64,000 nucleotides of DNA, taken from positions 21,639-85,638 of the forward strand of contig FN648635.1 of NCBI GenBank assembly GCA_000310025.1. The letters run 5' to 3'. Source of the stretch: Ectocarpus siliculosus (taxonomy: Eukaryota; Sar; Phaeophyceae; Ectocarpales; Ectocarpaceae). The position numbers and the translations under genes are program-made. Below, one piece after another: positions 7,936 to 64,000 of the stretch. Below the pieces are notes generated by a model. It was not told the origin of the DNA, searched no databases, and worked only from the letters and a program-made list of their open reading frames with translations. Numbering within the stretch: position 1 is the stretch's first letter; the number at the start of each line of letters is the position of its first letter.

Positions 7936-10768
7936 AATGCTCTGCAATCATCGCCATCTTCGCTTTCGCTAGGTAGAGCGCCGCGTCTCCATTGCCGCTC
8001 TCCTCTGCTGCCGCTTCCAGGACGCCGAAGTGAGACGACAGTTCACCATAAGCCGGTGGGACACGGCGCGCGAGCCCCGTGTTGTCATCGCCGCTGTCCT
8101 CCTCCTCGTCCTCCTCCTCGCGGCCGGTAGACACTCGAGTCCCAGCCAGCTGTGCCGTCATGTCTTCCACCGTATCCTCTCTGAGAGCCTCAACCACTTC
8201 ATCGTCGTCCTCGATGGAATCGCGTTCACCGCTTCCTCCAGGAGCGGCTTTCCGGGTTCGATGCGGAGTTCGGCGATGTCCTCGTCCTCGATTTGGGTAC
8301 CCTGCTTGTGCGCCTCGTGCATGCTCTCGTGCTCAACGTGTTGAGAGTCTCCGTGAAAGCCTTCAAGGTAGGCTCGGCGACGTGGAACTGGGACTTTCCG
8401 TGTTGCTTGGTGAGCTCAGCGGCCATCTCGTCCGGAAGAGTCTCGGCTTTGATAAAGCACCTGATCCCAGGTAGCGCAGAAAATGTCATGCATACGTTTG
8501 TGGGTGGACAACAAGCGGATGTTAGATGAACCCAGGGACGATCAAAGACTCATAGGCGGGGGAGGACTCAAGTTTTTGCGAAAAGCAAAGAAGATATGTA
8601 TTCGGATGTTGGAAAACTCAGTCGAAAACAATATAACCTATCCGTACAGCCTTACCCACGTTACCTTTGTACCACCAAAGCTATGTGCACCAAGGCGCGA
8701 GTTGAACAGTTTACATTAATTATAAACAGCGATTGCACATGCTCAAACCTCACCTGGCGATGTCCTGGGCGGTGACGCTGGCCCATGCTTTCTGGAGAAG
8801 TTCAGCGGCATCCCGCACGTGAGGTTGGTGCCCTTGCGCCAGCCCCATTGTCCCGGCCTTCATTTTGCGAGCTTTGGCCTCGGCACGAAGGGTGTCAGCC
8901 ACCAACATGGTCGATGTCTTCACATCGAGCAGCTCCTTCCTGTAGTTGAACTTCGTCTTGGCGATGATCCCCATGTCCATAGGCTGGTGTACGGAGGTGC
9001 AGTTTGGAGGGTAGAACTTGGTGGTAACTTGCCCCCGATCATCCACTAGATCACCGTGAGAAGCACAGCCGTCCATCAGAAGCAGCACAGGTTCGTGAGT
9101 GAAGCGCCGAACGAACGGGAGGAAGACCTCACACCACCACTTGCGGAAGGTCGCGGTGTCGGACCAGGCGTTGGCCTGCGAGAAGTACTTGAGAGGTGAA
9201 GGCGTGTCGTTGAAGCAGCGGGGACCCTTTGCCTTCCCGATGATGGACATGTCAACCTTCGCAGTGCCGTCGGCATTGGCGCACATGATGGCAGACAGTC
9301 GATCCTTGAAGAACATGCCCTTGGAGCCCCGCGCCGTCTTCCGATCCTTCAAGTTGGAGAGGTACGTGCGCCTGGGCATGAGCTTCCACTGGAGGCCTGT
9401 CTCGTCGACGTTAAAGATGAGCCTAGCCGGGTACTTTGCGCAAAGGGCCTTGAGTTCCTCCATGGCTTCCTTGATGGCCTCCTTGTTGACGCTACCAGCC
9501 TCGCCATGAAGTCTCACGCTGTCAATGCTGTTGCGCTTCACGAAGTTCCTGGCCCACCTTTCGCCGGCCTTGAAATCCTCGACCCTCGCCTTCACTTCCT
9601 TAGAAGCTGCTGGATCAGCCAGCAGGGTTGCCCTGGCGGCACGGCCGAAGCTTCGAAGGACGTCGCGCGTGACGGGCATCTTGGTCTTCCGGGCTTTCTC
9701 TAGTAGGTCAAGAGCTATGGCGTCCACCTATTGACCGTCAAACGAGGAGTAAACAATAAAGACGGTACAAAAGATAGCACGATTAGTTTCGAACATTAAG
9801 CCTCGTTGCACAGTGCATCGTAGTGGGAAGGAAACATTTCCGGGCATTTGAAAAACCACAGAAGCTCGCCGCTGCATCCGCATGTGTATTGATGTATTGT
9901 AACTCGTTTGAAAGAATAGGTGTGCGTGCGATGTAATGTACCAGTACAGTACAATACAACTACACATTTTTGGTTCGCAGTTTATATGCTGGCGCAGCAG
10001 CGCACGAACGATAAAACAACGAAGAAAGTTGAAAAAAAAGGTAACACAAAAAAAGACACAAACGAACGACGAGAGGGAACAAGCTCAACAAGTACTGTAA
10101 CAGTCGAGAAATAGAAGAAAAATGGGGAAAGGGAACAGAGAACAGGGAACAACTTGACAAGAGAAGAAGAAAAAAGAACAAGAACATCAGATAGACGAAC
10201 AAGGCTACAGAAAAAGGTCCTTGCAAAAAAGAAAACTCTTTGCAAAGAAGGCGCGGGAACTACGCGTATTTTTTTGAAAAACAACAGCAGAGTAGCGCAC
10301 CTCCGGATTATTGCCTGTGCGCACGTTTTTCTTGCTTCCTCCGCGTCCTGCAGCAGCCTCGGTCTCGTACTTCTTCCTGTTCTTCTTCACATCCCGGACC
10401 AACCGTTCCGAGCACTTGAAGCGATCTGCTATCTGCTCATGAGTCACCTTCTGATCCATCAGCTTCAGCATCTCACACTTGGCGCTGAAATCTGGCCGCG
10501 AACGAGGCTGAGACTTGTTGCTCCCCCCATTCGTGGCCTTCGGGCGTTTAGATTGTGCCTTCCCAGTGCTGTCTGCTGCTGACACTTTGCGCTTGCCGGC
10601 TTTGGCGACGCACGCGCTGCAGATGCGGTGATTCTCGTTGCCTACATCAACCACACTGCCGCAAATGCCGTGCAGTCGCCCGCCACATCCTCCCTGGCAG
10701 CCGTGACCATGAGGGTCTTGCGGCGTGGTGTCCTGTAGTTGGCACAGTTCACCTTCCGCACAGGGCAT
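7883..10768 (-). CDS. pogo/Tigger-like DDE transposase, three exons
   Basis: Exon 1 (10768-10301, 156 codons from ATG) has a Cys/His cluster (CGGRLHGICG, then ICSAC) followed by a CENP-B/pogo-type helix-turn-helix: HEQIADRFKCSERLVRDVKK. The intron 10300-9728 (GT-AG, phase 0) leads to exon 2 (9727-8754), which holds the catalytic core. In exon 2 numbering the acidic residues are D108 (FNVDETGL), D219 (LLMDGCASH) and D251 (NCTSVHQPMDMG), a DD31D spacing as in pogo/Tigger/Jerky proteins. The intron 8753-8461 (donor GTGAGG, acceptor GATCAG) leads to exon 3 with IKAETLPDEMAAELTKQHG. Further on, the protein-like frame changes twice (about 8340 and 8235) before the acidic tail ending VAPE at 7883, so exon 3 carries indels or further small introns. 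The protein would bind the GTGCCGG arrays and cut and paste the element. Confidence 0.85.
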
Positions 10769-31629: not shown

Positions 31630-32660
31630 AAATAAACGAAAAAAAACAAAGCACTGCAGCCGCCACGCCGCCAGCAACGCAACAAGCACGGACACCCCGC
31701 CCTCCCGTGAAAAACAAAGCTACGAAAAAACAAAACGAGGGACTGCAGCCGCCACGCCGCCAAAAATGCAGCAAGCACGGACACCCCCTCCTCCCTTCAA
31801 AAACAAAACTACGAAAAAACAAAACGAGGGACTGCAGCCGCCACGCCGCCAAAAATGCAGCAAGCACGGACACCCCCTCCTCCCTTCAAAAACAAAACTA
31901 CGAAAAAACAAAACGAGGGACTGCAGCCGCCATGCAGCAAGCACGGACACCCCGCCCTCCCGTGAAAAACAAAGCTACAAAAAAAAAAAAGAGGGACTGC
32001 TGCCGCCACGCCGCCTGCAATGCAACAAGCACGGACACCCCCTCCTCCCTTCAAAAACAAAACTACAAAAAAACAAAACGAGGGACTGCAGCCGCCACGC
32101 CGCCTGCAATGCAACAAGCACGGACACCCCCTCCTCCCTTCAAAAACAAAACTACGAAAAAACAAAACGAGGGACTGCAGCCGCCACGCCGCCAAAAATG
32201 CAGCAAGCACGGACACCCCGCCCTCCCGTGAAAAACAAAGCTACAAAAAAAAAAACGAGGGACTGCAGCCGCCACGCCGCCTGCAATGCAACAAGCACGG
32301 ACACCCCCTCCTCCCTTCAAAAACAAAACTACAAAAAAAAAACCCGAGGGACTGCAGCCGCCACGCCGCCTGCAATGCAACAAGCACGGACACCCCCTCC
32401 TCCCTTCAAAAACAAAACTACGAAAAAACAAAACGAGGGACTGCAGCCGCCACGCCGCCAAAAATGCAACAAGCACGGACACCCCCTCCTCCCTTCAAAA
32501 ACAAAACTACGAAAAAACAAAACGAGGGACTGCAGCCGCCACGCCGCCAGCAATGCAACAAGCACGGACACCCCTCCATCCTAGAAAAACAAAGCTACGA
32601 AAGAAAACAAAACACTGCAGCCGCCACGCTGCCACCAATGCAACAAGCACCGACGCCCCC
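31630..32660. repeat. 88-bp GC-rich minisatellite, about 12 copies
   Basis: The unit contains GACTGCAGCCGCCACGCCGC, CAAGCACGGACACCCC and AAAAACAAAACTACGAAAAA. Copies start about every 88 bp (AAGCACGGAC near 31684, 31772, 31861, 31939, 32027 and so on to 32645); one copy is about 11 bp shorter. Two sub-types alternate irregularly: CCCGCCCTCCCGTGAAAAAC and CCCCTCCTCCCTTCAAAAAC. Because 88 is not a multiple of three and the unit lacks stops, frames of more than 220 codons run through it on the plus strand; they are artefacts of the repeat. Confidence 0.9.
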
Positions 32661-32821
32661 CCCCTCCCCCAGTGGCCGTATGGAAGTAGAGTAGTACCAT
32701 ATGCGCGTCACCCAGAGCAGCTTTGTTTTCTTGAGCGTGGTACCAAGAAAATGTTCTACGGTTTCTTACTCTCTGCCACGGCCATCTGCACCTTCAATCG
32801 CATCATTTCCAACTCGAAGTT

Positions 32822-54382: not shown

Positions 54383-55265
54383 GATTTATGGGGGAAATAT
54401 CTTGAATGTTGAAAATGCGGCGTGTTGTTCCTTTCTTCTGCTTGAAGTTGATAAAGGCACAACCTCCCCCAGCTGTATTGCCTCAACACTGTGGGTGGAT
54501 ACTAGCGATGGGCGCCTACCTGGGGTGCCAAATTGAATCCGTTGCCCACGAGCTCATATCAAGCGGAGAAACAAAACTGTTCCAGTGCTGTCCAACTAAC
54601 AAGAAAGTGCATCAACCCGAGGCCGATGACACCCATGCACGTATCTCACGATGTAGGAGGCGTACCGAGGTCAAACCTCCGGCGCTGTCATCTGCACCCA
54701 CGGATTTGGCTCGGGTGCAAACGGATTGGGTGTGGAGTGATTCGATGAAGAGATAGAAGCGTCGCACACGACAGAGCAGTGTTGGCAAAACGTTCCTCCT
54801 GCTCCATTTTTCTACTTCAAAAGAAAGTACTCTTTGAACGGTCCCTCGACAGACTGGTGATGATGCACGTGGAACGAGGCAGGACAAATACGCATTTTTT
54901 TCTCACGCCTTGGTTGTTTTCGTTGGCCGTCGGCGCCCGCGGCGCCGACACAGTGACGCCAGGGTGCATTAGAGACCCTTGCGAGTGTGCCACGTGCAGA
55001 TTTCATGGCGTTATGGACGATTAGGTTGACTGACCTTCGGAGATCGCGCCGCACCCAGGCAAGATTTGTTACGCCGCCTCAAGATTTGTAAGGCTCGTTT
55101 CGACAGATCTTGGGTCAAGATTTGTTCGAAAGGGCAGATTTCGGGCCTCGAGAAATCTTGGCCAAGATATATCGGAAGATTTTGCTCCCATAAATGGTGA
55201 AACTGGCAGATCTCGGCCAAGATCAAGATTTATCGACAAGAGATTGTTCCCATAAATCGGGGCCT
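54383..55265. mobile_element. Possible diverged relative of the fold-back family
   Basis: CGATTTATGGGGGAAATATC near 54383 and its loose inverse near 55240-55262 could be termini. The right part (CGGAAGATTTTGCTCCCATA then AATGGTGAAAC, 55168-55201) parallels the right end of fold-back copy 3 (GAAGATTTTCTCCCATAAAC at 46884). Many AAGATTTG words occur between 55060 and 55230. The borders and family are uncertain. Confidence 0.3.
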
Positions 55266-55742
55266 AAGAAGACCTTATACGGCCAGTTGTCTTTTTTTGA
55301 GTAAGAAAAAATAAAAAGATCATAACAAAAGACAACCGCAAGAAATGGTCTAAAATACCACAAAAACAGGAAATGATTGGCGGCGTTCGACATTTTTGTA
55401 GAGGTCACACCACAGCGGGGACATTTCAGTCCACCAGCAAGGTCAGGAGCAAGCATTGCCGGAAGACGATGGCAGGTGTGACCCAAAGGCTGGCGGCCCA
55501 CTTCGCTGGCCAGACGGGTGATCGTGTGGTGTTGTTCACCGAGGCTCCGGAGGAGGCAAAGGATGCACACCAACGAACATGTCTTACGGGACACAGTGTG
55601 CTGCTGTTGTCTACAGCACCACATCCTTGCAAAAATCTATGTTCAACACCGGACATTTTCATTCACTGGTGTTTGTTTTTGTGTAAGGCAACTCGACGAG
55701 TATCGTCGCGTTGCCTGTCTGAAGCTTTCGATTATTGGGTAA

Positions 55743-55823
55743 CGTGTGACAGCTACAGAGCGCGTGAAGCAACGGAAGGACAGCAGCAGCCGCCTAACGC
55801 AGTAGCGGCGGCAGTTTAGAAAA
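55743..55823 (+). repeat. Split repeat A1
   Basis: The 81 bp starting CGTGTGACAGCTACAGAGCG and ending GGCAGTTTAGAAAA are identical, as far as I can read, to A2 at 62301-62381. Confidence 0.9.
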
Positions 55824-55883
55824 GGAAGGGCGGGACGGGACACGGCGCAAGCATTGGGGAAGCGACCAGCACGCGACTCTCCA

Positions 55884-55889
55884 TATAAA
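55884..55889 (+). promoter_or_regulatory. Candidate TATA box of the YR element
   Basis: TATAAA in the context CTCCATATAAAGGTGTGT, about 60 bp inside the A1 repeat, with a C/A-rich stretch (GTGTCCAACATCC) about 25 bp downstream where a transcript could start. Confidence 0.35.
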
Positions 55890-56984
55890 GGTGTGTACTC
55901 GTGTCCAACATCCATCGTGTCGGCCGTGTTCCTATTCGCGTCCCGCTACTCTTGTGACCTCACCGCTGCGTGCATTTAGCACGAGGGGGGAGGGTGCAGT
56001 AAGATAAGCGGCGGCAAGCCACCGCAGTCTCGCTCGCCGCGCCGCTCAGATAGGTCCCTTCCCAAACATGAGATGCGGTTCATCCCAACCAAGACGTACT
56101 CTCGCTGAAGAAAAAAAAAATGCGGTTCGTCCCAACCGAGACGTACTCTCGCTGAAGAAAAAAAAATTCAACGGCAAAAAGAAAGAGCGGGGCCTGTTGT
56201 ATGGTCGCACGCTGACTTGTCGCGGTCGATAGCAGCCATTGTACTGCGCGGGGTGGAGGAACCCTGCGGCATCGGACATAACCAATCGACCCGCGGCAGT
56301 AGGGCATGATGCTGTCACGAGTATGCACATGAGGCAGGTGCCTTGTTTTCTGTTTCCCCCGGCTTACCAGGGACTACTTGCCGGTACAATCTTGTCTGTG
56401 CCGCGCACAGAGGGGCATATAGCTCAAGGAATCGACGATAATATGCTCACTCACGTAAGCAATCGTCTCCACGGATGGTATTGACAAGTCCCCACTGATG
56501 GTATCGACAAGTCCCACGGCATACAAAGCGGCCGCATGCGTAATCGGAAAGTGCATTCAACAGCATTCACGGGAACGGATAAAAGCAAAACCACATGCAT
56601 GCGAGAGAAAGACTCAAAGAAAAAGACTGAAAAACAAAGAAGACGAGAAAAAAAAACGAGACAGCGAACTACGTGCTGTATGCATAAGGAAAAAGAAGAT
56701 GAGAAAAAAAAAAGGGGGGGAAGGTGAAAGTCACACGCGAGGTTCGACCTCGCGAAGATCGCCAGGTAACGGTCCGTACGAGCGCATCATGGTCTCGAGG
56801 GGCATCACGTCAAAGTTATTGCCGATGTGACACAAACCTTCTATAAGAATACGTCACGTCCATCGACGATTAAGCGACCGTTCCAAAAACGCCCGGACAG
56901 CAATTGATGCATGCCAAAAACTCGTCAACCTGCCGTAGGATTGTCTATGCGGAAGTGATCTCAATGGAAAAAAAAAAACAAGGA

Positions 56985-59375
56985 CACGCACCAGCACGGG
57001 ACGCGCCAATAGTGGAAGCACTCGTCCGTGCTGTTCGCGAGTGGAAGTTAACCGATCTCAACGCAACGAAACACGAAGTCATACATGTATCAGCACGGGA
57101 TGCGCCAATGAGTGGAAGCACCCGCGCTGTCGGCGAGTAGAGTTAACCGAATTCAACGCAGCGGTAGAAAAATACCACAAATCATGCATCAGTACGGGAC
57201 GCGCCAATGAGTGGAAGCACCCGTGGTGCATATGTGATGTCAGCCTCAGCACGGGACGCGCCAATGAGTGGAAGCACTCGTGCTGTTGGCGAGTAGAGTT
57301 AACCGATCTCAAAAAGAAAGAACGAAACGCCGTACACGTATCAGCACGGGACGCGCCAACGAGTGGACGCACCCGTGCTGTTGGCGAGTAGGATTAACCG
57401 ATCTCCACGCATCGAAAACAAAGTCGTTGACGTATCAGTACGGGACGCGCCAATGAGTGGAAGCACCCGTGCTGCATATGTGTTGTCAGTTTCAGCAAGG
57501 GACGCGCCAATGAGTGCTATTGGCGAGTAGAGTTAACCGATCTCAAAAAGAAAGAACAAAACGCCGTACACGTATCAGCACGGGACGCGCCAATGAGTGG
57601 AAGCACCCGTGCTGTTGGCAAGTAGAGTTAACCGAATTCAACGCAGCGGTAGAAAAATACCACAAATCACGCATCAGTACGGGACGCGCCAATGAATGGA
57701 AGCACCCGTGCTGCATATGTGATGTCAGCCTCAGCACGGGCACGCCAACGAGTGGAAGCACTCGTGCTGTTGGCGAGTAGAGTTAACCGATCTCAAAAAG
57801 AAAGAACAAAACGCCGTACACGTATCAGCACGGGACGCGCCAATGAGTGGAAGCACCCGTGCTGTTGGCAAGTAGAGTTAACCGAATTCAACGCAGCGGT
57901 AGAAAAATACCACAAATCACGCATCAGTACGGGACGCGCCAATGAATGGAACGCACCCGTGCTGCATATGTGATGTCAGCCTCAGCACGGGCACGCCAAT
58001 GAGTGGAAGACACCCGTGCTGTTGGCAAGTAGAGTTAACCGAATTCAACGCAGCGGTAGAAAAATACCACAAATCACGCATCAGTACGGGACGCGCCAAT
58101 GAGTGGAAGCACCCGTGCTGCATATGTGATGTCAGCCTCAGCACGGGACGCGCCAATGAGTGGAAGCACTCGTGCTGTTGGCGAGTAGAGTTAACCGATC
58201 TCAAAAAGAAAGAACGAAACGCCGTACACGTATCAGCACGGGACGCGCCAATGAGTGGAAGCACCCGTGCTGTTGGCAAGTAGAGTTAACCGAATTCAAC
58301 GCAGCGGTAGAAAAATACCACAAATCACGCATCAGTACGGGACGCGCCAATGAATGGAAGCACCCGTGCTGCATATGTGATGTCAGCCTCAGCACGGGCA
58401 CGCGCCAATGAGTGGAAGCACTCGTGCTGTTGGCGAGTAGAGTTAACCGATCTCAAAAAGAAAGAACAAAACACCGTACACGTATCAGCACGGGACGCGC
58501 CAATGAGTGGAAGCACCCGTGCTGTTGGCGAGTAGAGTTAACCGAATTCAACGCAGCGGTACAAAAATACCACAAATCACGCATCAGTACGGGACGCGCC
58601 AATGAGTGGAAGCACCCGTGCTGCATATGTGATGTCAGCCTCAGCACGGGACGCGCCAACGAGTGGAAGCACTCGTGCTGTTGGCGAGTAGAGTTAACCG
58701 ATCTCAAAAAGAAAGAACCAAACGCCGTACACGTATCAGCACGGGACGCGCCAATGAGTGGACGCACCCGTGCTGTCGGCGAGTAGAGTTAACCGAATTC
58801 AACGCATCGAAAACGAAGTCGTACACGTATCAGTACGGGACGCGCCAATGAGTGGAAGCACCCGTGCTGCATATGTGTTGTCAGTTTCAGCAAGGGACGC
58901 GCCAATGAGTGCTGTTGGCGAGTAGAGTTAACCGATCTCAAAACGAAAGAACGAAACGCCGTACACGTATCAGCACGGGACGCGCCAATGAGTGGACGCA
59001 CCCGTGCTGTTGGCGACTAGAGTTAACCGATCTCCACGCATCGAAACACGAAGTCATACACGTATCAGTACGGGACGCGCCAATGAGTGGAAGCACCCGT
59101 GCTCATATGTGTTGTCAGTTTCAGCAAGGGGCGCGCCAATGAGTGGAAGCACCCGCGCTGCGTACAAGTATCAGTACAGTCGCGCCAATGAGTGGAAGCA
59201 CCCGTGCTGCATATGTGTTGTCAGTTTCAGCGAGGGACGCGCCAATGAGTGGAAGCACCCGCGCTGTTGGCAAGTAGAGTTCACCGTATCCAACGCATCG
59301 AAGAGAAAAAAAAACACGTATCATCACGGGACGCGCCAATGAGTGGAAGCACCCGTGCCGATGGCGAACCGGGGT
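56985..59375. repeat. Higher-order minisatellite with a hairpin core
   Basis: About 30 copies of a 39-bp core, CAGCACGGGACGCGCC...GGAAGCACCCGTGCTG, are separated by three spacer types. One is about 60 bp with TTAACCGATCTCAAAAAGAA, one about 60 bp with GAATTCAACGCAGCGGTAG, and one about 20 bp with CATATGTGATGTCAGCCT. The order core-s1-core-s2-core-s3 gives a higher-order unit of roughly 250 bp that is most regular between 57190 and 58760 and decays at both edges. The first and last nine bases of the core are complementary (CAGCACGGG/CCCGTGCTG), so each can form a hairpin. It lies wholly inside the YR element. Confidence 0.9.
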
Positions 59376-59639
59376 TCACCGAATCCAAGAAAATATATAT
59401 ATATAAAAAAAAAAAGAGAAACCATCGCTAGTGTTCCAAAGAGAGAAATATTCGGGATTGGTCGACGTCCGGTGACCGTAGCGTCAGCAGCAAAAATCAC
59501 TCCATTCAATCCACAGGCGTCGAGAACGAACTAACGCGAGCTCGCGATATAACAACGCGTCGTTCTGGGCCCGACGAAAACCCACGTCAGATAGTTTCGC
59601 CCGAAGATAGGATTTGTAGACCATTCTAACTGCAGATCC

Positions 59640-60629
59640 AGGCGCGCGATCGACTACGCCCACGATGAAGAGGAAAAGAAGTGTTCCCGCAACGCCGCCC
59701 TGACGCTCGCCCGCCGCCTGCCGCCGGTCCGCTGCTTATACGACTCCAACCGCGACCAGATGCCGACACGGGCCTCCACGCGGAGCGGCAGGGCAGCGGC
59801 TGGGCAAGCAGGGCGAGGTCGGGCGCCGACACCTTCGACACCACGCACGAGGAGGTCTACCGCGCGATCGGTGGCGAGCTCGACGGCTCGCCCCTCGACG
59901 CGCAGCGGATCACGTACTCCGGCGAGGCGTCGAGCGGTATCCTCCTCGCGAGCGCCAGGGACAGGCACCCGCGGCGACCCCCCCGCTGATGAGACTGAGC
60001 TCGCTTCTCTCCGCGGGCTGGTGGACGGCCTGAGGGTGGAGCTGCAGCGGAAGCGCGATGAGGCTGCCGGCGATCGCCAGCAGCTTCAAGCAACGATCGA
60101 CGACCTGATCGCCACCCAAGCAGCAGGACCTGGCCTTCCGGGGGGGGGTGCAACTGGTGGGCACAACCGCCCCACCATCGGCCTCTCGGGCCCCCGCTAC
60201 ACCCAGCGCCGAGGCGGCTAAGGCTACGGCAAAGGATAGAGCGCGGATGTGGGGGGACCTCCGCCGGGTAGAAGCGTGGCTCATCCTGGGGCGGCCTCCG
60301 GCAGTTTCAAAACTGTCGCAGATGGAGTGGCAATCCTTGCTTCGCAAAGGCGTTCTGGTGACAGAGAAAGTGGCGGCATCGCTCGACACGCTCGTGGTTA
60401 CTGCCTCGCCTTCAACTCGTCGTCCGGTTGCCATGATCGTAACTGCCCACACATCCACGCCCAGAACCCTTCCCACGCTAGGCGCGGAGCGTCCGAAACT
60501 CCGGCAACCGGCGCGCGCGGCGTTGGCCACGGCAACGGGGGAGGGCGCGGAGGAGAGGCGCGCGCCGCTGGCGAGGGCGGCGCGAGACCCAAGGCCGCTG
60601 ACTTCTTCACCCACGGGAAAGACAAATAG
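59640..60629 (+). pseudogene. gag-like region with coiled coil and CCCH finger, frameshifted
   Basis: Protein-like segments follow one another in changing frames: FDTTHEEVYRAIGGELDGSP (about 59840), a coiled coil VDGLRVELQRKRDEAAGDRQ (about 60020), MWGDLRRVEAWLILGRPPAV (about 60247) and, in the last frame, GYCLAFNSSSGCHDRNCPHI-H (about 60400), a C-x8-C-x4-C-x3-H finger. A basic Gly/Ala-rich tail ends at TAG 60627-60629. A coiled coil followed by a Cys/His finger upstream of an enzyme ORF is a gag-like layout. Three frame changes indicate decay or short introns; I could not find good splice pairs. Confidence 0.5.
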
Positions 60630-61874
60630 GGGTGCGGGCTCTCCCGCGTAGCGGGGGGGCCTACCTCGGATGGCAGCGCACCTGCGGCTAAATCGAACGG
60701 CAGCACGCCGGTCTACACGAGGTTGGCTCCAGGGCTATCAGCAGGTTCAGGACCTGGGACAGGCAGGACGGGACTTTGTTACCGACGTCTTGGCATGCAG
60801 CTCGTCGAGCACTCAGTTGCGTCTTCGTCTAGAAGGACTTACACGTCAGGCTTCAACTCTTGGGGCACGTTTCGCAGGCTGACGGAGAAGCCAAAGTTCC
60901 TAGGGCAACGTGCCGGGGACCTTCATGTGTGGGAGTTGATAGACTTCGTAGCCTGGTGTTTCGAGTCTGAGGGTAATCTAGCGAGTACAATATCCGGAAA
61001 ACTCACGGTACAACATCGTCATAGGCTGGAAGCTTCTGTCGAGCTAGATTTGTCGTCTCCGATGTTGAAATGTGCGCTAAGGGGGATTGCGAGAAACCAC
61101 GTGGCTGTGGGGACGGTACGCCGTGTGCGCCTGCCTGTGTCTTGGCGTATGCTGCTGGACGGGGAAAGCGCAAGCCAGAACTGGGGGGAAGCGGGCAGAG
61201 TGATGTGGCTGTGTCTGTGCTTGTCCTATCTCTTTATCACACCGTCTGATGAGGTGTTCGCGAATGATGCGGGCAGAGTGCATGAGGCACACTGTCTTAC
61301 GAGGGCGGACGTAGCATTGTTTGCTGGCGAGACGCAATTAGTCTTTAGTCACTATCGTAGAGCAGACCGTGTCGAAATGAGGTTTAGAGGGCACAAGGCC
61401 GATCAAGAGCAGAAAGGAAACATACGGGTTCGTACGCGAGACGAAGTCACCGGACCGCAGTCAGGTGTGAGAGCACGCGGCGGCGCGGTGGCTCTTGTGG
61501 TGGAGCTGTTATCGTGTCATGCGACGTTGCCTGACTCCGCACCGTTGGCTTCGTACCGTAGTGGAAGAGCAGTGAGAGTAGTGAGGTATACTGCTGCCCT
61601 CCGTGTAGTCAGAGAAGTGGTAGCGAAGTCGGGGCGTAACCCCCAGGAGTACGCGTTGCACTCGTTGCGAATTGGAGGCGCGACGGCTCTTGCATCGGGC
61701 GGAGACATCGCAGAACGAGTGATTCAGAGAGAAGGGAAGTCGAGGTCGGATGCATACAAGCCGTACGCGCGAAACAATGTAGAGGATTCGCGGCGAGTGT
61801 CACGGAAACTTACAGACGGCAGTAGGATCGTATCGAGACAGCCGGGGGAGGGGACCGTCTGGGGGAACGGATAG
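60630..61874 (+). CDS. Tyrosine recombinase (YR)
   Basis: The frame is open from the codon after the gag-like TAG (60627-60629) to 61874. No ATG occurs in its first 50 or so codons, so its start is unclear. An N-terminal SAM-like core-binding part (RTYTSGFNSWGTFRRL, WELIDFVAWCFESEGNLAST) is followed by a catalytic domain with SYLFITPSDEVFAND, MRFRGHKADQEQKG, EYALHSLRIGGATALASGG (H-x2-R box) and DAYKPYARNN, whose Tyr is the likely nucleophile. Length and motifs fit YR proteins of DIRS/Ngaro/Crypton-like eukaryotic elements, and the frame is intact. It would integrate circular DNA by strand exchange at the split repeats. Confidence 0.8.
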   Translation, partial: GCGLSRVAGGPTSDGSAPAAKSNGSTPVYTRLAPGLSAGSGPGTGRTGLCYRRLGMQLVEHSVASSSRRTYTSGFNSWGTFRRLTEKPKFLGQRAGDLHVWELIDFVAWCFESEGNLASTISGKLTVQHRHRLEASVELDLSSPMLKCALRGIARNHVAVGTVRRVRLPVSWRMLLDGESASQNWGEAGRVMWLCLCLSYLFITPSDEVFANDAGRVHEAHCLTRADVALFAGETQLVFSHYRRADRVEMRFRGHKADQEQKGNIRVRTRDEVTGPQSGVRARGGAVALVVELLSCHATLPDSAPLASYRSGRAVRVVRYTAALRVVREVVAKSGRNPQEYALHSLRIGGATALASGGDIAERVIQREGKSRSDAYKPYARNNVEDSRRVSRKLTDGSRIVSRQPGEGTVWGNG

Positions 61875-61915
61875 TTGACTTATTCTGTAGTCGTCCAGAA
61901 ACTGACCTCGATGTG

Positions 61916-62150
61916 GGTGTTGTAGAATGGTGTGTACCATTTGAGGACTTGGTCAGTTTTGGGACTCCTGCGTTTGCAGTCGTAGTCCCTCGGCTAGTAT
62001 TTGTGGGGAGAGAGATGGATTTGTAAGAGTTGACGCCGGCCTTTGCAGCTAACGCGGCCGGAGAGACGATGAGCGTTTCGTGCGTCTCTCTCCCCAACAC
62101 GTAGCCTAGAAACCGAAGAAATAGTGAAGCAATTCGAAAGAAAACAAAAT
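61916..62150 (+). repeat. Split repeat B1
   Basis: 235 bp from GGTGTTGTAGAATGG to AAAGAAAACAAAAT, differing from B2 at one base (ATAGTG here, ATAATG there). It contains a near-palindrome around GAGAGAGATGGA/CGTCTCTCTCC. Confidence 0.95.
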
Positions 62151-62300
62151 AAAAGGAAGGTTTGTTCGTCGAAGCAGATAGAATAAACTGGTGTTTATTT
62201 TGTAACAGTCGAATTAGAATTTGGCTTCATTTTCTACCGGAAACCCAGGGTCACGGTGTTTGGAATTATTAGTCTATAGTTGGGGGTGTCATTCCGTGAT

Positions 62301-62381
62301 CGTGTGACAGCTACAGAGCGCGTGAAGCAACGGAAGGACAGCAGCAGCCGCCTAACGCAGTAGCGGCGGCAGTTTAGAAAA
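62301..62381 (+). repeat. Split repeat A2
   Basis: 81-bp partner of A1 (55743-55823), placed between B1 and B2. Confidence 0.9.
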
Positions 62382-62449
62382 TCCCGCCCTCCCATCCCTT
62401 TTCTTTCGAAGGTGGGGGCATAAGTTCGGGAATATTCGGTATCTAGTCA

Positions 62450-62684
62450 GGTGTTGTAGAATGGTGTGTACCATTTGAGGACTTGGTCAGTTTTGGGACT
62501 CCTGCGTTTGCAGTCGTAGTCCCTCGGCTAGTATTTGTGGGGAGAGAGATGGATTTGTAAGAGTTGACGCCGGCCTTTGCAGCTAACGCGGCCGGAGAGA
62601 CGATGAGCGTTTCGTGCGTCTCTCTCCCCAACACGTAGCCTAGAAACCGAAGAAATAATGAAGCAATTCGAAAGAAAACAAAAT
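62450..62684 (+). repeat. Split repeat B2
   Basis: 235-bp partner of B1; its end at 62684 is the presumed right border of the YR element. Confidence 0.95.
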
Positions 62685-62940
62685 GGTGCACAAGCAAGGC
62701 ACCACTGCTGCAGAGTCTGGCCCAAAACAAATGACGCGGATTGCATGGATGCAATGATGTCGAACCTCCGCTCGGCAGAATACCCTGCTCGTGTACACGC
62801 ACCGAGTAAGGAGCGAGCGGGAAGCACTTGTGACAGCACGGGAAAACCTCTATATCTTGTGTCCATGTATTGGGTTGATGCGTGGTGAAATGAGCTCCAG
62901 TCTGCAGGGAACATTGGCACGAACAGTCGCACTGTATTGA
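62685..62940. other. Spacer between YR element and transposase
   Basis: A frame reads LRSAEYPARVHAPSKERAGS up to a stop at 62888, but no family is recognised. It could be a 5' part of the following transposase gene cut off by the YR element. Confidence 0.3.
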
Positions 62941-63857
62941 TTGGCATGTCTAGGAGAGGGTTCGTCTTTAATTGCTCGCACACACCTATACGTTTTTTCT
63001 GGGGTAGTGGATGGGCTTGCCGCTGCCCGAAAAGCTAATTTTAGAGAATCTAAGAGCGCCTCTGTTGTGTCCCTCCCCGCGTGCCATGCCTGTCCTCAGG
63101 AAAAAAGCACGGGCGGCGCCTTTCAAGGTGTGGTAGCTGCGGGGGATGGCCTCTTCGTGAAGACTCTTGCTCCGCCTGCCCGCAGCACTCCGAACGTTCT
63201 CTCGTATTATTCTGGGAGCAAGTGCGGCTACGCGATGAACGTACAGGCGACGTGCGATGCCAACTACCGGTTTTGCAGCATGTCTTGCATTGCGCCCGGC
63301 TCGACCAATGACTGGACGGCATGGAACCATTCGGATCTATCCAAGCGGTGAAAAACCTGCCGCCAGGCTTCTATATGCTCGGAGACGCGGCTTACCCCCT
63401 AAGCGACCACCTGTTGACTCCGTACCCAGGGAGGGGACTGACGCTGGACAAAGACGCGTTCAACTTCTATCTGAGCCAACTCAGAGTCAGGATCGAGCAA
63501 GCGTTCGGCATTCTCGTCGGCCAGTGGGGCATCCTGTGGAAGCCCTTGCGTGCTCAGTTCGCTGGGCGCTGCGACGTCATCACGGCGCTCTTCCGCCTCC
63601 ACAACTATCTCCGGGACGAGCAGGTCACACCAATCTACCGGTCGGAAGAAGACGCGGAGGTAGTCCAGGTACGCCCCCACCTACTTGGCGACAAGACTCT
63701 GTCAGAAGCTTTCAGCACGACCACCAAGGACGCGCAGAAACCTACCAGGTCAGGCGAAGTCTCCACGCGCAAGGCGATCACGATGATGCTGGACAACAAG
63801 CGCCAGTACCGCCCAAAGCACAACTTGGAGCGCAACGCAGCGAGGAAGACGTAAGGG
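62941..63857 (+). pseudogene. Second PIF/Harbinger-type DDE transposase, one frameshift
   Basis: The first frame contains GAFQGVVAAGDGLFVKT (first Asp), YYSGSKCGYAMNVQATCDAN and CIAPGSTNDWTAW. A one-base slip near 63345 moves to the frame with KNLPPGFYMLGDAAYPLSDH (second Asp) and LRVRIEQAFGILVGQWGILW (Glu), then ITALFRLHNYLRDEQ. These are the DDE_Tnp_4 blocks in the expected order; the protein ends about 80 residues later with a basic tail. The N-terminal helix-turn-helix exon is not found, perhaps because of the neighbouring YR element. It is clearly a different family from the transposase at 28875. Apart from the frameshift it is well preserved. Confidence 0.75.
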
Positions 63858-64000
63858 ATCGAACGTGGGCGGGTTGCGGTGGAGGGTGGGTCCCGAGGAC
63901 GTAGTACGTGGATGGTGGACGAGACGAGGCAAATGCGGCGGTGGTAGCCTTTGAGGAGCGTGGGCCGTGGCCAGGGCGGGGGATGTGGACAATCTGGTCG
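63858..64000. other. Window edge, nothing recognised
   Basis: GC-rich sequence downstream of the transposase stop; the right terminus of that element was not seen. Confidence 0.3.

Follow-up and report, generated by a model that had tools for sequence, protein, structure and literature searches.

What kind of element carries a tyrosine recombinase (YR) gene and the split direct repeats of a retroelement while lacking a reverse transcriptase (RT), and how could it have spread? The question arises from a stretch of 64,000 nucleotides of the brown alga Ectocarpus siliculosus (assembly GCA_000310025.1, contig FN648635.1, positions 21,639 to 85,638 of the forward strand; contig C146 in this analysis), referred to below as the window, in which an earlier note had described such an element at 55743-62684 and had proposed either a non-autonomous YR retroelement that keeps its own recombinase gene or a distinct YR class. 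From a search of the genome (189 Mb in 492 contigs), we conclude that the element in the window is most probably a decayed member of an RT-less family that derives from a Ngaro-type YR retroelement, was amplified recently and has been mobilised by RT acting in trans. The first of the two proposals holds for the whole family, in which the recombinase is kept, only the tail of the RT is left and RT-bearing copies stand elsewhere in the genome.

The repeats of the window copy follow the order A1...B1-A2-B2, with an open recombinase frame before B1, as the earlier note had described. The A pair (55743-55823 and 62301-62381) is 81 bp long and 100% identical, and the B pair is 235 bp long and 99.57% identical:
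55737-55823, + strand: A1, truncated at its 5' end, the last 87 bp of a repeat of ~265 bp; homology to other copies starts at 55737, and 81 bp match A2 at 100%
61916-62150, + strand: B1, 99.57% identical to B2
62151-62381, + strand: A2, a 150-bp left part and the 81-bp core (62301-62381), lacking the 35 bp found between the two in other copies
62382-62449, + strand: spacer of 68 bp from A2 to B2, 100% identical in complete copies
62450-62684, + strand: B2, the 3' end of the element, from the repeat match and the border comparison

This is the layout A1-[ORFs]-B1A2B2 (ORF, open reading frame) given for Ngaro elements (PMC8547959), and it is found in the window and in 12 of the 20 further stretches that were fetched after the search for other A-B-A-B copies that the earlier note had advised. 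The inverted terminal repeats with an internal complementary region that mark DIRS1-like elements are absent, there being no inverted repeat pair of at least 25 bp in 55000-64000 of the window. The expectation that family borders would fall at the start of A1 and the end of B2 was correct at the 3' end, where the border is the end of B2 (in the window without the AA that follows B2 in other copies), and wrong at the 5' end. Full-length A in other copies is ~265 bp (150 + 35 + 81), and the left border of the other full copies, which starts with the motif AGGAAGG, lies ~180 bp outside the window A1. Since homology in the window begins only at 55737 (query 55500-56100, 48 matches), the first ~180 bp of A are gone and the start of A1 is a 5' truncation rather than the border of the family. 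A longer, diverged 5' repeat to the left of 55737, suggested by a resemblance to the 150-bp part, was rejected because no copy reaches left of that position.

The family is widely dispersed. A genome search for the A core (a 30-mer, at most 2 mismatches allowed) gave 295 occurrences and a reversed-pattern control gave 0, so its repetition is not due to chance, and the 769-bp block from B1 to B2 gave 40 scored matches among 441 candidates. Among the first 100 of the 295 A cores there are 31 same-strand neighbouring pairs lying 2-9 kb apart (median spacing 5,945 bp), of which 26 enclose a recombinase match and none an RT match, in an overlay that took in 37 of 107 recombinase matches and 21 of 62 RT matches. 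In the 12 full copies all four repeats (two A, two B) are complete, and the other 8 fetched stretches are broken, truncated or cut by contig ends. In full copies, A measures 265 bp in 11 cases and 269 bp in one (L023), B measures 236 bp, and the element as a whole 3.6-7.3 kb. Apart from the outermost flank base, only two private changes separate A1 from A2 within the 12 copies; B1 and B2 of each copy are likewise nearly identical. The extra length in L023 is a 4-bp insertion that its A1 and A2 share, 5.5 kb apart, and that is unique to L023 among the 12 copies, as expected if both repeats derive from a single template in a replication cycle; gene conversion could do likewise. Some copies have unusual structures: L014 (C99) is a 3.6-kb derivative without satellite and gag that has kept the recombinase and both ends, and three A cores stand in a row at C12:1577014-1582874 (the extra one lying 569 bp after A2) and at C10:2009030-2015261 (the extra one lying 452 bp before A1), which suggests tandem duplication of repeat blocks. 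A 1341-aa open frame at C241 was discarded because in L011 this place consists of a run of N. No relative turned up when viral contigs were scanned.

Could the copies have multiplied without transposition, through segmental duplication or redundancy in the assembly? Some small contigs may indeed be alternative haplotypes, and yet this explanation is very hard to credit, given that the 12 full copies have different flanks and precise ends and that uninterrupted insertion sites were found for half of them. When 90 bp of left flank and 90 bp of right flank of each copy were joined and searched against the genome (40 candidates scored), six copies (L011, L015, L018, L019, L021, and L022) had an uninterrupted counterpart elsewhere, with matches of 180-183 bp for 180-bp queries and 155-160 bp for the 155-bp query of L021. 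These sites lie mostly in dispersed repeats, and those of L018 and L022 each depend on one place with 93% identity; no uninterrupted site for the remaining six copies was among the matches listed. Because joined flanks match uninterrupted DNA, the borders of the element are real and come without a sizeable target duplication: judged from match lengths, none beyond ~1-3 bp is present at the six sites. This agrees with Ngaro elements, YR elements in general being described as moving without target duplication (PMC4157794). The left flanks often have A-rich sequence right beside the element, which would fit strand exchange within a short core rich in A. The family has thus been mobile in the past, with precise ends, having lost its RT and retained its split repeats.

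The interior of the element tells what was lost. It is best read against a relative on contig C315, whose recombinase is 63% identical to that of the window. Upstream of it stands a 496-aa gag-like ORF, followed after a UAG stop by an ORF of 770 aa (P0001) that continues the gag frame and overlaps the recombinase in another frame. After its recombinase stand B1 and B2 copies of 197 bp (97.5% identical), and before its gag a tandem array of a 122-bp unit repeated 14 times. With P0001 (as RT-RNase H) and this gag as tblastn queries against 48 loci and the window, the interior of the window copy reads as follows:
55824-56960, + strand: 5' leader, whole or partial in 12 of 12 full copies compared
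~56988-59360, + strand: tandem array of variable length, with sub-units of ~95-99 bp in a higher unit of ~250 bp, from a repeat scan; 10 of 11 readable full copies have it
59760-60110, + strand: N-terminal gag remnant, matching residues 1-130 of the C315 gag (E 3.7e-4, 32%)
60399-60473, + strand: gag remnant matching residues 412-438 of the C315 gag (E 0.002, 48%), which we take to be a CCCH finger
60627-60629, + strand: UAG separating the gag frame from the recombinase frame, both in the same frame; 13 of the 15 copies compared share the UAG GGG context
60723-61874, + strand: tyrosine recombinase ORF of 383 aa from a TTG at 60723 (frame open 60630-61874), from the ORF and the copy alignment
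60742-60879, + strand: remnant of the RT-RNase H tail (P0001 residues 725-770), in another frame and overlapping the recombinase (56.5%, E 3.1e-7)

The satellite in the 5' part and the absence of an RT between the gag-like part and the recombinase, both remarked on in the earlier note, are confirmed: the P0001 search of the window returns only the last 46 residues. The same is true of the family. All 11 readable full copies (L011, with its run of N, is excluded) retain only the RT-RNase H tail, from P0001 residue 725 or 730 to 770, where the RT frame overlaps the recombinase. In L023 this tail is matched in two pieces and in L003 and L010 the alignment starts at residue 669; the rest of the RT was not found in any of the 11 by tblastn with P0001. 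In 10 of the 11, gag remnants and the junction are the same as in the window by DNA comparison, the exception being L014, which has lost satellite and gag. The UAG context, shared by the window, fails in two of the copies checked (L011, which reads N, and L014, where the place is lost). About 20 residues past the UAG resemble the start of the RT, with a score that 9 of 5000 shuffles reached. With RT-RNase H reduced to its tail, the element is a derivative rather than a full Ngaro-type member, and the simplest history is that RT-RNase H and part of gag were deleted from a full element, which was then amplified.

That P0001 is an RT is itself read partly from presumed motifs, a YVDDA sequence and an RNase H-like end. 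Against Pfam, it matches RVT_1 only (E 0.021, below the cut-off), and it matches the RT of another element, that of L024, which fits the RT reading. No methyltransferase was matched in the C315 relative, though a divergent domain could be missed; of the features of PAT-like elements, the split direct repeats are present. Given the array of the RT-bearing C315 relative, a satellite in the leader may characterise the group as a whole. A single UAG is all that separates gag from the following frame, which stays in phase with it, both in the C315 relative (L046-L048; GGA follows the UAG) and in the window (60627-60629; GGG follows); readthrough of this UAG, of the kind seen in some retroviruses, is conceivable. 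At L024 a separate YR retroelement (RT 35% and recombinase 37-40% identical) lies beside a broken copy of the RT-less family; the RT there was rejected as a family member, belonging to the other, 35% identical family next to the broken recombinase copy.

RT-bearing copies, which the earlier note had advised looking for, are present in the same genome. Of 107 recombinase matches scored, 81 are at least 95% identical to that of the window, and 5 of these 81 have an RT match on the same strand within 4 kb upstream and 76 do not; the counts are minima, scoring having covered 58 of 487 candidates for RT and 107 of 725 for the recombinase. The recombinases of the RT-bearing members are 95-97% identical to that of the window, on C74 and C79 the RT and recombinase frames are both free of stops over the match, and another RT, on C27, is preceded at a distance of 5.3 kb by an exact A core. 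A further 15 recombinase matches at 85-89% have no RT match and have longer open frames (up to 596 aa), mostly with internal TGA; they are possibly another RT-less lineage.

Such partners bear on the second proposal of the earlier note, a separate YR class that never possessed an RT. All 11 readable full copies are without one, as that history would have it, and it is nonetheless highly improbable, because the RT tail in an overlapping frame (56.5%, E 3e-7), the gag remnants, and the RT-bearing relatives with 95-97% identical recombinases mark the family as a deletion derivative. An internal deletion has taken RT-RNase H together with part of gag; what survives is the leader with its satellite, the gag fragments, the recombinase, and the split repeats. 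We propose that the RNA of the shortened element would be copied by RT (with Gag) provided in trans by RT-bearing members. The internal B1-A2 would allow the ends to be restored in a circle carrying a B-A junction, which a recombinase, encoded by the element or by the helper, would integrate at a short A-rich core with no target duplication. The derivative has reached dozens of genomic sites, probably by using the RT of complete relatives in this manner.

Alternatively, the RT-less element might now be a DNA transposon, its recombinase excising and reinserting a DNA circle in the fashion of Cryptons with no RNA step. Retention of the recombinase (open in 19 of 23 other copies), the lack of RT in every readable full copy and the lack of detectable target duplication would all suit such a life, which we consider unlikely because the full A1...B1-A2-B2 set, useful for RNA copying, is kept in 12 copies, the 4-bp insertion of L023 is common to A1 and A2, RT-bearing relatives are present and no selection on the recombinase is detectable. 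A related idea, to which we attach little weight, is that of a semi-independent parasite that has its own recombinase and needs outside RT (and Gag), perhaps moving as a DNA circle without RT; if true, a retroelement would be turning back into a recombinase-only DNA transposon. Cryptons proper consist of a recombinase without retroelement parts, and here gag and RT remnants and split direct repeats are present.

Several points weigh against the derivative mobilised in trans. Mobilisation in trans is something we infer, and the RT-bearing copies with 95-97% identical recombinases are known by coordinates and identities, not by their A and B repeats. The recombinase protein has no match in Pfam, PHROGs or NCBIfam; a profile of four sequences finds Cre alone in PDB, weakly (9 distinct sequences, E 0.26-0.36), and one of three sequences finds a ribosomal protein alone (E 0.71). 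Purifying selection is undetectable in the 19 open RT-less copies, which have 10 synonymous and 20 non-synonymous variants (ratio of non-synonymous to synonymous polymorphism, pN/pS, 0.66; p = 0.19), and the recombinase in these copies may be a passenger; constraint this weak speaks against a strong need for the recombinase in cis. Over the longer term the gene has been constrained, with a non-synonymous divergence (dN) of 0.29 and a saturated synonymous divergence (dS) between C315 and L015.

The assignment of the protein to the tyrosine recombinases is based on its motif, together with the weak profile match, in which H, R, and Y face the HSAR and NY of Cre; we assume the active-site positions from the family motif. 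R, K, HxxR, W, and Y are conserved in the 37-40% identical recombinase of the other L024 element, whose sole Pfam match up to E 10 is Phage_integrase (PF00589; E 0.15, sub-threshold). A single recombinase sequence as query matched nothing, and the predicted structure of the window protein (predicted local distance difference test, pLDDT, 31) was not used as support. Compared with the 23 other copies that have both gene ends (2 of 25 were dropped; 19 are open and 4 frameshifted), the window recombinase stands apart. Its frame is open over 60630-61874, which bears out half of the earlier description of an intact gene; the box I Arg, kept in 23 of 23 other copies, is Pro in the window alone, and Ser replaces a Trp that is kept by all 20 of the copies still in frame at this position (the other 3 are shifted). 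Lacking this R and W, the window recombinase is very probably no longer working and, with its box I Arg lost, the window copy is probably dead. L013 has lost the His of HxxR.

Non-autonomous partners of long terminal repeat (LTR) elements and long interspersed nuclear elements (LINEs) are commonplace, and to our knowledge few have been described for YR retroelements. A literature phrase search returned no non-autonomous DIRS, Ngaro or YR element, though other wording or subscription papers may hold some, and in the partly accessible literature searched we found no description of an RT-less YR family keeping its recombinase. The comparisons that follow extend as far as the accessible portions of the cited papers. 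Ectocarpus is credited with 15 Ngaro families (PMC12477816). The window family resembles Ngaro (PMC8547959, PMC4157794, PMC6681497) in its repeat order and, in the C315 relative, in a gag-like ORF and an RT-RNase H overlapping the recombinase; Ngaro is described as lacking a methyltransferase (PMC4157794), and that relative gave no match to one. The RT-less family itself shares the lack of target duplication (PMC4157794) and differs in the deletion of RT-RNase H, the satellite in the 5' leader, and the one in-frame UAG after gag. SIRE, the short non-autonomous form of VIPER, likewise descends from a YR retroelement with split direct repeats, but it consists of the A2-B2 region only and has no recombinase gene (PMC6681497). 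In the Cafeteria genome, type 2b Ngaro variants are also internal deletion derivatives within their host, but there a ~2 kb deletion removed ORF1, whereas the window family has lost RT-RNase H (PMC8547959). Cryptons too have a recombinase without an RT, and split direct repeats and an RT remnant, both present in the window family, are not described for them (PMC3212892). With its recombinase, its split repeats, and an autonomous partner in one genome, an RT-less family is a natural setting in which to test which tasks of recombinase, RT, and Gag must be done in cis, and which can be done in trans, in these little-studied elements.

The window also holds other features. About 0.6 kb past the end of B2, at 63321-63851 (+ strand), lies a DDE_Tnp_4 transposase fragment (E 1.1e-11), presumably Harbinger-like; a DDE_1 transposase with a weak Tc5-type helix-turn-helix match occupies 8750-9727 (- strand), and a tandem array of an 89-bp unit in 11.8 copies, with a higher unit of 266 bp, extends over 31639-32668.

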